Of a stretch of DNA of 22,031 nucleotides, positions 4,835 through 21,862 are shown in pieces (the stretch's first letter is position 1; each line of letters begins with the position of its first letter). The stretch is from positions 1 to 22,031 of IMG/VR virus record IMGVR_UViG_3300046780_000282; one strand, 5' to 3'. Both the position numbers and the translations under genes were made by a program. A model generated the notes under the pieces. It was not told the origin of the DNA. It saw nothing but the letters and a program-made list of their open reading frames with translations, and searched no databases. This stretch comes from a virus.

Positions 4835-6666
4835 TGGCGAATTCAATCGGTGCAGTCCGGGTTGATCTCGTCGCCGATCCGTCCGGGATCAAGGACGGCA
4901 TCGCGCAGGCGTCGTCGGCGTTGGCTGGTCTCGGGATTTCGTCGGTCGCCATCGGCAACATAATTTCGAAGGCGTTCACGGACGCGCTCGCCGCGGTCAA
5001 AGACGCGGTTAAAGACGCCCTGGAGAGAGTCGAGGCGTTCAGCAACATCGCCGACAAGCTGAAAATCAAGCCGGGGGATTTCTCAACTGCGCTCGCCGGC
5101 ACATTTGACGATGTCAAGGATTTTAACGATCTGCTCGACGGCCTTAAGGGCAAGATCGCGGAAGCCGTCGAAAAGCCGATGTCGCAAGCCGCGATATCGT
5201 TTCAGACATTAGGCGTTCAGACCAAGGACGCAACCGGCAAGACGCGAGACCTGTATAACGTTTTCGTGGACACCGCCGCGGCGATCGCCGCGTCAAAAGA
5301 TGGATTCTCGAAAACCGCTCTGGCCGTGGACGTGTTTGGCGAGAACGCCAAAGACGCGATGGACAAAATCAAGGAGCTCGGCGCCAAGGGCGGCATTCAG
5401 GACGCGATCGACGAGTCGAAGGAATTCGGGACGTATCTCAGCACCGAAGGTCTGCGCGCCGCAAAAGTATATTCCGACGCAAACGACAGTCTGACCAAGA
5501 GTTGGAAAGGCATAAGCGACACGATCACCGATGCATTCTTGCCGGTCGTTGCCGAGATTCAGAAGGCCTACGCCGCAAACGTCGAATGGATAGCGAAGAA
5601 TATTCAGTCGCTCCGCGATTATGGCCACGCGTGGGGAGAGGTTTTCCAGGCTTTGGACCTGGCCAATACGTCGATGAAAGCAATCATGACGACCGGGATT
5701 GCGATTGGCGCCGTGTTTTCCACGCTGGCGACGCTCATTGCCGCACCGATCGCTGCGCTCATTCAGTTGTCGCAAGGTGATTTTTCAGGTGCGCTGGAGA
5801 CCTTGAGCAAGGGCTGGCGCGATCTCAGCGGTGAGGTGTCTGACACGTCGAAGAAAATCACCGATCTGTGGACGGCCGCCAAAGGCGCGATGGACGACGC
5901 GTCCAAGACCGACACGGCGGTTGCCGGCATTCAGCGCGTGCGCGTGAGCGTCGATGACCTCAAGAAATCCATGGCCGACGCCAAGAAGGCCGCCAAGGAC
6001 GTGCTGCAGGAGGTGCTCCAATCGCCGTGGAGCACGCTATCGGACAAGATCACCGCGCTAAATGTGGCATTCGACAATGGTGCTTTGCGTCTCACCGAAT
6101 ACCAAAAGAAGCTTGTCGAGGTAAAAGACCAAGCACTCAAGCCGGTGTATGACGCATTCGAGACGTTTTTCGTATCGGTGCTCGACGGCTCGACGAAGAT
6201 ATCCGACGCCCTCAAAACGCTCACCAAGGCGCTGGAAGACCTCGCCCTTAAGGCCATATTCAAGGAGCTATTCGGCGGCCTGTTCTCTAGCGCGGCAGGC
6301 GGCGGCGGCGGGCTCCTTAGCAGTTTGTTCAGCGGTCTGAGCGGTATGCCGAAGGCGGCCAGCGGCCTTAATTTCATGGTCGGCGGCGCCGGCGCGGTAG
6401 ATAGCCAGGTCGTGGCGTTCCGCGCCTCGCCGGGCGAACGCGTGGCCGTGGGCGACGATGTCGGTCCGGTATCCAGCGGCAGCGGCGGGCAACCTAACGT
6501 GATCGTGAACAACTACACCGACGCGCAAGTGTCGACTCGCCAGAATCCGAACGGTGACCTTGAGTTGACGGTGCGCCAGATCGTCAACGATCAGCTCTCC
6601 CGGCAGGGCGGCCGCGACGCGATGTCGTCCACCTACGGGCTGCGGCCGAAAATCCGATCGAGGTGA
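4834..6666 (+). CDS. tail length tape measure protein
   Basis: 610 residues, starting at the ATG that overlaps the chaperone stop. N-terminus IGAVRVDLVADPSGIKDGIAQ is the usual tape measure opening, followed by long Ala/Lys/Asp-rich amphipathic helices (residues 45-270). A hydrophobic segment at about 280-312 (TTGIAIGAVFSTLATLIAAPI) could insert in the host membrane. The C-terminal third carries a lambda-type tape measure C-terminal domain with SDALKTLTKALEDLALKAIFKE, a Gly-rich turn and SPGERVAVGDD. It sets tail length. It is short for the class, implying a short tail of roughly 90 nm if the usual 0.15 nm per residue holds (inference). Confidence 0.85.
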   Translation: MANSIGAVRVDLVADPSGIKDGIAQASSALAGLGISSVAIGNIISKAFTDALAAVKDAVKDALERVEAFSNIADKLKIKPGDFSTALAGTFDDVKDFNDLLDGLKGKIAEAVEKPMSQAAISFQTLGVQTKDATGKTRDLYNVFVDTAAAIAASKDGFSKTALAVDVFGENAKDAMDKIKELGAKGGIQDAIDESKEFGTYLSTEGLRAAKVYSDANDSLTKSWKGISDTITDAFLPVVAEIQKAYAANVEWIAKNIQSLRDYGHAWGEVFQALDLANTSMKAIMTTGIAIGAVFSTLATLIAAPIAALIQLSQGDFSGALETLSKGWRDLSGEVSDTSKKITDLWTAAKGAMDDASKTDTAVAGIQRVRVSVDDLKKSMADAKKAAKDVLQEVLQSPWSTLSDKITALNVAFDNGALRLTEYQKKLVEVKDQALKPVYDAFETFFVSVLDGSTKISDALKTLTKALEDLALKAIFKELFGGLFSSAAGGGGGLLSSLFSGLSGMPKAASGLNFMVGGAGAVDSQVVAFRASPGERVAVGDDVGPVSSGSGGQPNVIVNNYTDAQVSTRQNPNGDLELTVRQIVNDQLSRQGGRDAMSSTYGLRPKIRSR

Positions 6667-6670
6667 CCCA

Positions 6671-7039
6671 ATGACGACATGGCCAGACACTCTGCCGAGC
6701 AATCCTCTAATTGCCGGGCTGCAATATCAACCGGCATCGAATGCGACTGCGATCCCGGTTGAGGCCGGCGAATTGCTCACGCGTCGGCGTTTCACAGGCG
6801 AGATGGCGCAGATTTCAGCGGTCATGACACTCACCACGGCGCAAGCGCAGGATTTGCTCAGTTTCTACCGGGACACGCTCGGCGAGGTCGATACGTTCGA
6901 TTGGACCGATCCGCTATCTGGCGACACCGTCGAGATGATATTTAATGGCGCGCCGTCCTTTCAGCCGATCAGCACGACGCACTGGAACGCAGCGTTTACG
7001 CTCTTTACCAAGCCTGTCATGGACGTCAGTTCACCATGA
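6671..7039 (+). CDS. minor tail protein, distal tail
   Basis: 122 residues, 4 bases after the tape measure stop. TTWPDTLPSNPLIAGLQYQ at the N-terminus and the FDWTDPLSGDTVEMIFNGAP block (residues 76-95) are typical of a phage minor tail protein that follows the tape measure, in the position of lambda gpM. Predicted all-beta. Its TGA overlaps the next ATG (ATGA at 7036-7039). Confidence 0.7.
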   Translation: MTTWPDTLPSNPLIAGLQYQPASNATAIPVEAGELLTRRRFTGEMAQISAVMTLTTAQAQDLLSFYRDTLGEVDTFDWTDPLSGDTVEMIFNGAPSFQPISTTHWNAAFTLFTKPVMDVSSP

Positions 7040-19773: not shown

Positions 19774-19991
19774 CGGACCCGCCCAAACCGCCGCCGGCGA
19801 CGATCAAACAGCAGGCCGATTACCTGCGTTACCTCGCGGGCCGCTGCATTTGCGCGAACGGCAAGCCGGCCGAGGTCACGCTGCTGGCGATCGAGGCTGG
19901 GGATTACGACGCGCTGTCGGCGCTCGCCGAGCGGCTCGAACGCATGGCGCCGCACGAGGCGGCGATACGGCGGATCGTGGTGGGGAAATGA
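19770..19991 (+). CDS. small early phage protein, unknown
   Basis: 73 residues from a GTG that overlaps the previous stop (GTGA). Highly helical: IKQQADYLRYLAGRC then ALSALAERLERMAP. The single Cys pair (RCICANGK) does not suggest a metal site. It overlaps the methyltransferase ATG (ATGA at 19988-19991). Confidence 0.65.
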   Translation: MTDPPKPPPATIKQQADYLRYLAGRCICANGKPAEVTLLAIEAGDYDALSALAERLERMAPHEAAIRRIVVGK

Positions 19992-21862
19992 GCGAGCTGT
20001 TGGCTAACGGCCGCGTCACGCTGTATTGCGGCGACATGCTGGACATCATCAAGACGCTTGCCGACAATTCGATCGATAGCGTCGTGGTCGATCCGCCTTA
20101 TCACCTGACGAGCATCGTGCAGCGGTTCGGCGATGAGAACGCCAAGCCGGCGCTCTCGGCCGCTCAACGGCGTTTTGCCGAGACGGGTGGCGCCGATCGG
20201 ATGCCCGGCACCGATCAATACGGCCGTCTATCCAAAGGATTCATGGGCAAGGTATGGGACGGCGGCGACGTAGCCTTTCGCGCCGAGACCTGGCGCGAGG
20301 TGTTGCGCGTCCTCAAGCCCGGCGGCCATCTATGCGCGTTCAGCGGTACGCGGACCTATCACGACATGGCGCACGCTATCGCGCTAGCAGGATTCCAAAT
20401 CCGCGACATGCTCGCTTGGATATACGGCAGCGGGTTTCCGAAATCGCACGATATCAGTAAGGCGATTGACAAATCTGCCGGGGCAGATCGTGAGATTGTT
20501 GGCCGCAAAACCGGACGCGCCGCAACGCCGGTGCAGGATATCCGCGGCGGTTCTTATGCCGGCGGCAATGGGAAAAATGGCGCGGCGGATTGTTCGGCGA
20601 TCACTTTGCCAGCAACCGAACTCGCCAAGCGATGGGAAGGCTGGGGCACCGCCCTAAAGCCCGCGCTTGAGCCGATCTGCCTAGCGCGCAAGCCGATCTC
20701 GGAAAAGACGATCGCAAAAAATGTCCTGGCGCACGGGACCGGCGCGCTGAATGTGGACGCGTGCCGGGTCAATCCGGGCGAGCGCGTGCAAGGTGGCGGC
20801 AAATCGAAGCGCGGCGCGCAAGGTGGCGGAATTTACGGCGATGGCGAGTCGACGCACAATGCGGATTCGCACGCTCTCGGCCGATGGCCGGCTAACGTCA
20901 TCACGGACGGCAGCGACGAGGTTGTCGAGATGTTTCCGGAATCCAGCGCAAATAATGGCGTGACTAAGGGCTGCGCAGCGGGTGGAATATGGTCGGGTTC
21001 CAGCGGTAAACGCGCTGGACCGACGCACGGCGATTCCGGCTCGGCCGCGCGCTTTTTTGCTTCCTTTCCACAAGACGAGTCATGGCTTGATGAGGTGACT
21101 TTAGAATGGAATTCAGATCGCGGCCCATGCCGAGCGCGGCTCATGGTGGCTACGGAACAGTCACTCGGAAGGGTTATCGACGTATCGGGATCGGCAACAA
21201 GCAGCGAATGGAACACGTTCTTGTTTGGGAACAGCATAACGGACCTGTTCCGGACGGCTTCGACGTGCATCATAGAGACGAAAACAAACTCAACAACGAC
21301 ATCGCCAACTTGGCATTGGTTGACAAACTTACTCACAAACGAATTCACGGCGGATGTGAGCTACGAAACGGCGAATGGTGGAAGCCTTGCCGGAAGTGTG
21401 GACAGTGGTGCCACATCGCTGATTATTACAAGCGAAAAGACGGTGTTTCTCCCAAGCCATGCTGCGTCGAAAACGCCACTGAAAATAAGCGTAAACGCAA
21501 GGCACATGCATCAAATTCCAGCCAATAGTCCGCGGCTGCACTATACGTCAAAGGCGGATGCAGATGATCGATTAGGGTCACACCATCCAACTATTAAACC
21601 GCTCGACCTGATGCAATGGCTCGTGCGGCTCGTGACGCCGCCCGGCGGTATCGTTCTCGATCCGTTTGCCGGCACAGGCACAACCGGCGAGGCGGCGTTT
21701 CGCGAGGGCTTCCACGCCGTTCTGATCGAGCGCGAACCCGAATATCAGAACGATATCCGGCGCCGCATGTCGCTTGTGCTCGGCGGCAAGGACGAACGGC
21801 GTCGCGAAGCCATCAAGGCGGGCGGTAAGGCCGACATGGACCCGGGGCCTTTGTTTCGGTGA
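19988..21862 (+). CDS. DNA methyltransferase (N6-adenine/N4-cytosine type) carrying an inserted segment
   Basis: 624 residues from the ATG overlapping the previous stop. Catalytic motif DPPYHL is at residues 35-40, EVLRVLKPGGHLCAFSG follows, and the SAM-binding motif LDPFAGTGTTGEAA is near 557-570. The order (catalytic first, SAM second) is the beta class, Pfam N6_N4_Mtase type. Just before HPTIKPLDLMQWLVRLVTPPGG the usual RFFYxAKA segment is split: RFFASFPQDE ends at about residue 364 and RLHYTSKADADDR resumes at about 515. The ~150 residues between are Ser/Thr-rich and unlike any methyltransferase; they are the shifted translation of an HNH gene. Without them the protein is about 474 residues, normal for the family. 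Activity with the insert is uncertain. Target site not readable from sequence. Confidence 0.85.
   Translation: MSELLANGRVTLYCGDMLDIIKTLADNSIDSVVVDPPYHLTSIVQRFGDENAKPALSAAQRRFAETGGADRMPGTDQYGRLSKGFMGKVWDGGDVAFRAETWREVLRVLKPGGHLCAFSGTRTYHDMAHAIALAGFQIRDMLAWIYGSGFPKSHDISKAIDKSAGADREIVGRKTGRAATPVQDIRGGSYAGGNGKNGAADCSAITLPATELAKRWEGWGTALKPALEPICLARKPISEKTIAKNVLAHGTGALNVDACRVNPGERVQGGGKSKRGAQGGGIYGDGESTHNADSHALGRWPANVITDGSDEVVEMFPESSANNGVTKGCAAGGIWSGSSGKRAGPTHGDSGSAARFFASFPQDESWLDEVTLEWNSDRGPCRARLMVATEQSLGRVIDVSGSATSSEWNTFLFGNSITDLFRTASTCIIETKTNSTTTSPTWHWLTNLLTNEFTADVSYETANGGSLAGSVDSGATSLIITSEKTVFLPSHAASKTPLKISVNARHMHQIPANSPRLHYTSKADADDRLGSHHPTIKPLDLMQWLVRLVTPPGGIVLDPFAGTGTTGEAAFREGFHAVLIEREPEYQNDIRRRMSLVLGGKDERRREAIKAGGKADMDPGPLFR
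21106..21528 (+). CDS. HNH homing-type endonuclease nested in the methyltransferase gene
   Basis: 140 residues, frame -1 to the methyltransferase, with its own GAGGT 9 bases before the ATG. RKGYRRIGIGNKQRMEHVLVWEQHNGPVPDG, then VHHRDENKLNN (His55-His56, Asn60, Asn64) and LVDKLTHKRIH (His77, His81) are the HNH_3-type nuclease core. A Cys cluster follows (PCRKCGQWC, residues 94-102, and CC at 119-120) that may bind zinc, and the C-terminus is basic. Free-standing HNH genes of this kind are mobile in phages. G+C here is about half (210 of 410 bases from 21121 to 21530), below both sides. The stop TAG lies where the methyltransferase homology resumes. Confidence 0.85.
   Translation: MEFRSRPMPSAAHGGYGTVTRKGYRRIGIGNKQRMEHVLVWEQHNGPVPDGFDVHHRDENKLNNDIANLALVDKLTHKRIHGGCELRNGEWWKPCRKCGQWCHIADYYKRKDGVSPKPCCVENATENKRKRKAHASNSSQ

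Follow-up and report, generated by a model that had tools for sequence, protein, structure and literature searches.

How can a viral gene contain a second, complete gene and still be read from end to end? The question is raised by the last gene of a 22,031-base virus record that also holds tail genes, a RecT-like gene, and a repressor; the whole stretch is here called the window. This last gene (positions 19988 to 21862, plus strand, from ATG to stop) encodes a DNA methyltransferase (MTase) of 624 amino acids with no internal stop, and an HNH_3 endonuclease gene (21106 to 21528, plus strand) lies within it at offset +2 relative to the MTase codons. The MTase matches PF01555 (8.3e-24) and phrog_67 (2.8e-64), E-values, like the codon-usage estimates used below, being based on short contigs. 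DPPY occupies codons 35 to 38 and DPFAGTGTT occupies codons 558 to 566, and the predicted fold resembles those of the beta-class enzymes CcrM and RsrI. With DPPY upstream of the FxGxGT motif and a matching fold, the interrupted but open gene encodes a beta-class N6-adenine/N4-cytosine DNA MTase.

The nested gene starts with ATG, encodes 140 amino acids, and matches HNH_3 (PF13392) with an E-value of 6.6e-17 and 61.3 bits (cut-off, 24.8). The HH...N...H residues are present, and a Shine-Dalgarno-like GAGGTG (21092 to 21097, plus strand) lies 8 nt 5' of the ATG, a feature shared with the related locus L160; L240 likewise has a Shine-Dalgarno-like sequence before its HNH gene. Two observations of the original prediction, a complete HNH gene with its own Shine-Dalgarno sequence in another frame and an MTase frame that stays open across it, are thus upheld. 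At positions 21442 to 21474, the window HNH reads SPKPCC, compared with SPWCKSCC in relatives. Because part of the C-terminal Cys pair (the WC) is missing, the activity of this particular HNH is uncertain and may be reduced.

Comparison with homologs confirms that the segment is a real insert and redraws its borders. On the left, MTase conservation extends to RFF (codon 357, nt 21058), not to about RFFASFPQDE as first thought; on the right, it restarts at Y519 (nt 21542). The uninterrupted alleles to be expected of an insertion exist: L035 (RFFYGAKADADDR), L037 (RFFYSSKADAEDR), and L027 (RFFYCAKADEGDR) run directly from RFF to Y, so that 161 MTase codons of the window (21059 to 21541, plus strand), between RFF and YTSKADADDR, are inserted. 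The MTase resumes 3' of the insert with the segment YTSKADADDR...HPTIKP (21542 to 21604, plus strand), as judged by comparison with relatives. DNA alignment places the part of the insert common to the nested elements of L160 and L240 at approximately 21087 to 21500 (plus strand). The seven residues ASFPQDE on the left side of the window insert lie outside both the conserved MTase and the shared element, which begins near 21087, and may have arisen by decay from a copy of YTAKAGKRDR, the segment found left of the element in L160. In most relatives, the element is located 3' of AKxxxxxR(NxGL) and directly 5' of H(P/S)TVKP. The window element sits 5' of YTSKADADDR, i.e., upstream of this usual site, and has thus taken another position in the same phase.

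Several comparisons indicate that the HNH element is mobile and moves horizontally. The MTases closest to that of the window lack the element, and in a tree of 243 MTases, nested and uninterrupted genes are intermingled, with 29 Fitch changes of state. Between the window and L160, 70% of HNH residues are shared, compared with only about 51% in the MTase N-terminal core. The HNH genes of L257, L258, and L259 are identical (dS of 0), although MTase dS is 0.2 to 0.36; for L241 and L242, HNH dS is 0.03 versus 0.87 for the MTase. Along these pairs, nearly complete identity (close to 100%) is limited to the element plus a short flank and drops outside. Among cultured phages, none was found with the window-type HNH family nested in an MTase, only distant HNHs at <60% identity, and a plasmid search returned one distant match.

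Could the nested HNH instead belong stably to the MTase as an accessory, such as an additional part for DNA targeting or defense that is kept for the benefit of the phage? The recurrence of the HNH-MTase association and purifying selection on the HNH frame in all copies speak for such a role. However, the repeated changes of state and horizontal tracts described above, the involvement of several unrelated HNH families at several sites, and the occurrence of relatives outside MTases make a purely accessory, nonselfish role unlikely. Patchiness and tracts fit mobility better, although benefit and mobility are not exclusive.

If the element moves among MTase genes, is the open frame more than chance? 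The original prediction proposed that the element may have been selected to be translatable in two frames and expected some seven stops by chance. That expectation was too high: when synonymous codons are resampled from the usage of the locus itself, 2.7 MTase-frame stops are expected in the window alone, and the probability of finding none is about 0.05. Openness is borderline in this single window, and significance comes from the family. To sample the family, viral contigs were searched with an HNH-only profile that is blind to the MTase frame, so that copies were not chosen for openness. All six copies that served as queries were nested and open, and their peptide patterns were used in the scan; still, the scan was able to find other kinds, because outside and broken copies turned up.

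We classified 82 copies, taking those from the HNH-only search together with copies known earlier. Of these, 64 are nested and open; another 4 are likewise nested and open but truncated at the end of a contig; in 7, the MTase around the nested gene is broken; and 7 lie outside MTases. All 68 nested and open copies have the same offset, 2. Removal of near-duplicates left 56 distinct nested copies (7,749 codons, 34 to 65% G+C, in related MTases), which have 0 MTase-frame stops versus 227.4 expected. In the other frame, the same 56 HNH genes have 640 stops, compared with 578 expected. Six distinct copies outside MTases have 24 stops in the corresponding frame (23.5 expected), and the AT-rich broken cases L256 and L278 have 25 (20.5 expected). 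Given the contrast between open nested copies and expected-level stops in outside and broken ones, we reject chance openness: an open frame is confined to copies whose host gene requires it or did so until recently. Selection for translation in two frames, as first proposed, is borne out to this extent: the counts strongly support the interpretation that the DNA of the element has been selected to lack stops in the MTase frame. The same dual-frame state, with one offset, recurs in all 56 distinct nested relatives, and among homologs the segment is not shared as a conserved domain without HNH coding.

HNH genes of other families, located elsewhere in this MTase family, are also open in the frame of the host, whatever the offset: offset 1 in L056 and L172, offset 2 in L026, L075, and others, and the opposite strand in L286. 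L056 has 0 stops at offset 1 and 8 at offset 2. A counter-example to the open-frame rule is the second HNH of L253, which is closed. In L286 (2956 to 3183, minus strand), an HNH_3 domain lies antisense in an MTase open reading frame (ORF) that remains open. L056 (6785 to 7339) and L027, two phages from one metagenome, form a filled and empty pair in which the nested HNH lies at VTP^GGLVLDPF at offset 1.

Is METHYLTRANSFERASE still selected? The C-terminal part of the MTase beyond the insert is reachable only through the insert or from an unrecognized internal start, and it is under strong purifying selection between nested alleles, with dN/dS values of 0.034/0.85 (L302/L306) and 0.027/0.35 (L257/L258). 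By simple pattern, DPPY is found in 50 of 55 nested MTases and DPFxGSGT in 52 of 55. Within the insert, constraint falls on the HNH frame (pN/pS of about 0.3 versus about 1 in the MTase frame, with codon position 3 fastest), and the MTase-frame peptide is nearly unconstrained, with about 28% identity where HNH identity is 52%. AlphaFold2, run with a 41-sequence alignment, gave pLDDT values of >90 for the core blocks on both sides and <50 for the insert together with the neighboring native variable region. The simplest reading is that the insert forms a tolerated disordered loop between confidently folded halves; a tolerated loop is what the original prediction had suggested.

These results bear on whether the HNH insertion merely disrupts the MTase, with openness due to chance or a by-product of HNH composition. 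The borderline probability in the window alone would allow this, as would the broken MTases of some relatives. Such an account is nevertheless very unlikely in view of the stop counts for nested copies, outside copies, and the other frame, the strong purifying selection downstream of the insert, and the openness of L056 and L172 in a different frame, the one that their host uses. Inactivation of the MTase, initially kept as an alternative, is thus disfavored for open-frame copies and applies to a few relatives.

The broken relatives are of two kinds. In L261, L310, L311/L313, and L314, the HNH gene is open in the MTase frame, but an insertion of 5 to 7 nt exactly at HPT^VKP brings in a stop. 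In L256 and L278, 2 nt (CT) are inserted at HPT^VKP, the MTase is broken, and stops occur inside the HNH gene; intron-borne copies were considered for these two loci and rejected on the same grounds. The broken genes imply that the MTase is dispensable in some phages. All of these 2- to 7-nt insertions (L261, L310, L311, L314, L256, and L278) fall exactly between the ACN and GTN codons of HPT^VKP and are possible repair scars at a nuclease cleavage site. The MTases of the mycobacteriophage-like contigs L065, L067, and L068 are disrupted near the C terminus by stops and a frame change (near 6380 to 6860; 5170 to 5810 in L068), and L065 and L067 also have a short foreign-looking ORF.

An Rfam scan of 12 sources found no intron family or other match, and a Pfam scan of the window found no intein or splicing-domain profile. 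It is very unlikely that the insert is removed, whether as a cryptic intron or as an intein-like element that leaves by protein splicing and encloses an HNH ORF by coincidence. In favor of removal are an in-frame N|S, reminiscent of an intein junction, where the window insert ends on the right, the frequency of intron-borne HNH genes, and true inteins elsewhere in the same MTase family (L061, L075, L079, and L072). Against it, the HNH ORF takes up 423 of 483 inserted nt and leaves about 60 nt, no room for a ribozyme, which with the absent covariance-model match speaks against a group I or II intron; the MTase-frame sequence is unconserved, unlike splicing domains, which with the missing profile match speaks against an intein; an open frame would be unnecessary for an intron; and the ShiLan study, taken up below, likewise reported no intron or intein signature (PMC11855218).

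Expression of the HNH from its own start is suggested by more than the Shine-Dalgarno-like sequences. We scored promoter-like pairs with at least 5 of 6 bases of TTGACA, a spacing of 16 to 18, and a near-TATAAT -10 element. Such pairs occur in 17 of 56 distinct upstream windows (about 30%), with a perfect -35 element in 9, whereas none of 2,700 control windows from the same ORFs and 0.6% of shuffled sequences had one. L002 and L275 have TTGACA-17-TATAAT upstream of the HNH gene. The -35 element often appears to overlap the GLD codons (cttgaca) of the MTase. In several relatives, the -10 element is only 12 to 14 nt 5' of the HNH start codon, a distance that would give an almost leaderless message. 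At the other end, the HNH stop commonly overlaps an MTase motif, as caTAGcac (H-S-T replacing H-P-T) or as gTTAAa within V-K.

The locus is therefore best read as a mobile, dual-frame homing-endonuclease element that does without splicing and leaves its host gene readable, an interpretation that we consider very probably correct. The sequences show the nesting, a family-wide openness of the frame far in excess of chance, horizontal movement, and purifying selection that acts both on the HNH and on the downstream MTase. The HNH protein would be made from its own start, with a Shine-Dalgarno sequence in the window and dedicated promoters in many relatives. As a putative nuclease, it would presumably cut or nick MTase genes that lack the insert, close to the insertion site, and the element would then be copied into the cut gene during repair; such homing behavior is suggested by the horizontal tracts and the HPT^VKP scars. 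The MTase would be translated straight through, presumably with no splicing, gaining about 160 residues as a disordered, sequence-unconstrained loop beside the catalytic core, and would probably retain its activity with the loop.

With moderate confidence, we extend this interpretation to phage MTase genes at large as hosts of a large and old class of dual-frame homing elements, comprising several unrelated HNH families at several sites. In this class, open-frame selection would replace splicing as the means of sparing the host gene; many members would carry their own promoter, built in part on the host GLD codons (cttgaca) and in some cases positioned so that translation is leaderless; and the HPT^VKP insertions would mark the cleavage site. 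A second, unrelated nested gene, an HNH_2 gene with zinc-finger-like Cys pairs, occurs in L073 (2411 to 3016; the cultured Escherichia phage BUCT618) and L001 (3576 to 4238). It lies out of the MTase frame after SGFPKSxxxSKQ(I/L)D, and the flanking sequence recurs as SKAIDKA; L001 has two nested HNH genes in one MTase. In-frame intein-like inserts were also seen in the same MTase family, in L061, L075, and L079 at the SGFPKS site and in L072 (EBPR siphovirus 2 gp50) at the GFMG site; L075 holds both an intein-like insert and a nested HNH.

How does the element compare with known systems? The phenomenon is not new. The ShiLan domain, an insert described earlier by Gosselin et al. 2023 (PMC9957025), was reported by Arsenault et al. 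2025 (PMC11855218) as an HNH gene that lies out of frame in methylases of actinophages without closing the methylase frame; its distribution is disjunct, and signatures of introns or inteins are absent. The 2025 report rested on a few mycobacteriophages and left open both frame selection and HNH translation (PMC11855218). The window has the same properties: a phage DNA methylase whose third frame holds a complete HNH ORF, the absence of methylase-frame stops, a patchy, horizontally moving distribution, no intron or intein signature, and an in-frame product predicted to be disordered or looping. Even the MTase family is shared, since Starcevich, named in PMC11855218, is L075, a ShiLan-type copy. 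Nevertheless, the window element is not the ShiLan domain proper. The HNH clade differs, with 140 amino acids and an ATG start here versus 195 amino acids, flanking zinc fingers, and a GTG start in ShiLan, and the site is RFF^Y or before HPTVKP, whereas ShiLan lies at LK^PxxEP about 100 codons upstream. Furthermore, the present family is not restricted to mycobacteriophages and has a Shine-Dalgarno sequence and/or a promoter, whereas ShiLan has no detectable ribosome-binding site. The kind itself is known; what is new is the HNH family, which occupies a different site in the same MTase family.

Out-of-frame HNHs in methylases are also reported for Mycobacterium phage Pacc40 gp60 and Applejack gp54/gp55 (PMC11855218, PMC12613952). 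The HNH of Pacc40 is divergent and lies in a methylase of another family; the likeness to Applejack is by description only. Free-standing phage HNH homing endonucleases are similar in having HNH_3 and their own start, and relatives of the window element are found next to genes (L254 and L307, for example); they differ in not being nested and in having as many stops as expected in the frame that corresponds to that of the MTase. Beyond ShiLan, the present analysis adds a separate HNH family and site, the finding that this family is widespread among environmental phages, a statistical answer on frame selection from a controlled test, possible cleavage scars, and promoter evidence that, with the Shine-Dalgarno sites, offers a concrete candidate answer to the question of HNH translation. 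Such inserts can be annotated as part of one long methylase, a warning for gene calling. Inteins and group I introns with homing endonucleases occupy a conserved protein gene without abolishing its product, as the present element probably does too. They remove themselves by protein or RNA splicing, whereas here the insert is apparently kept and the endonuclease is encoded in another frame. With this family, a third mode of hiding in genes, alongside introns and inteins, becomes directly testable.
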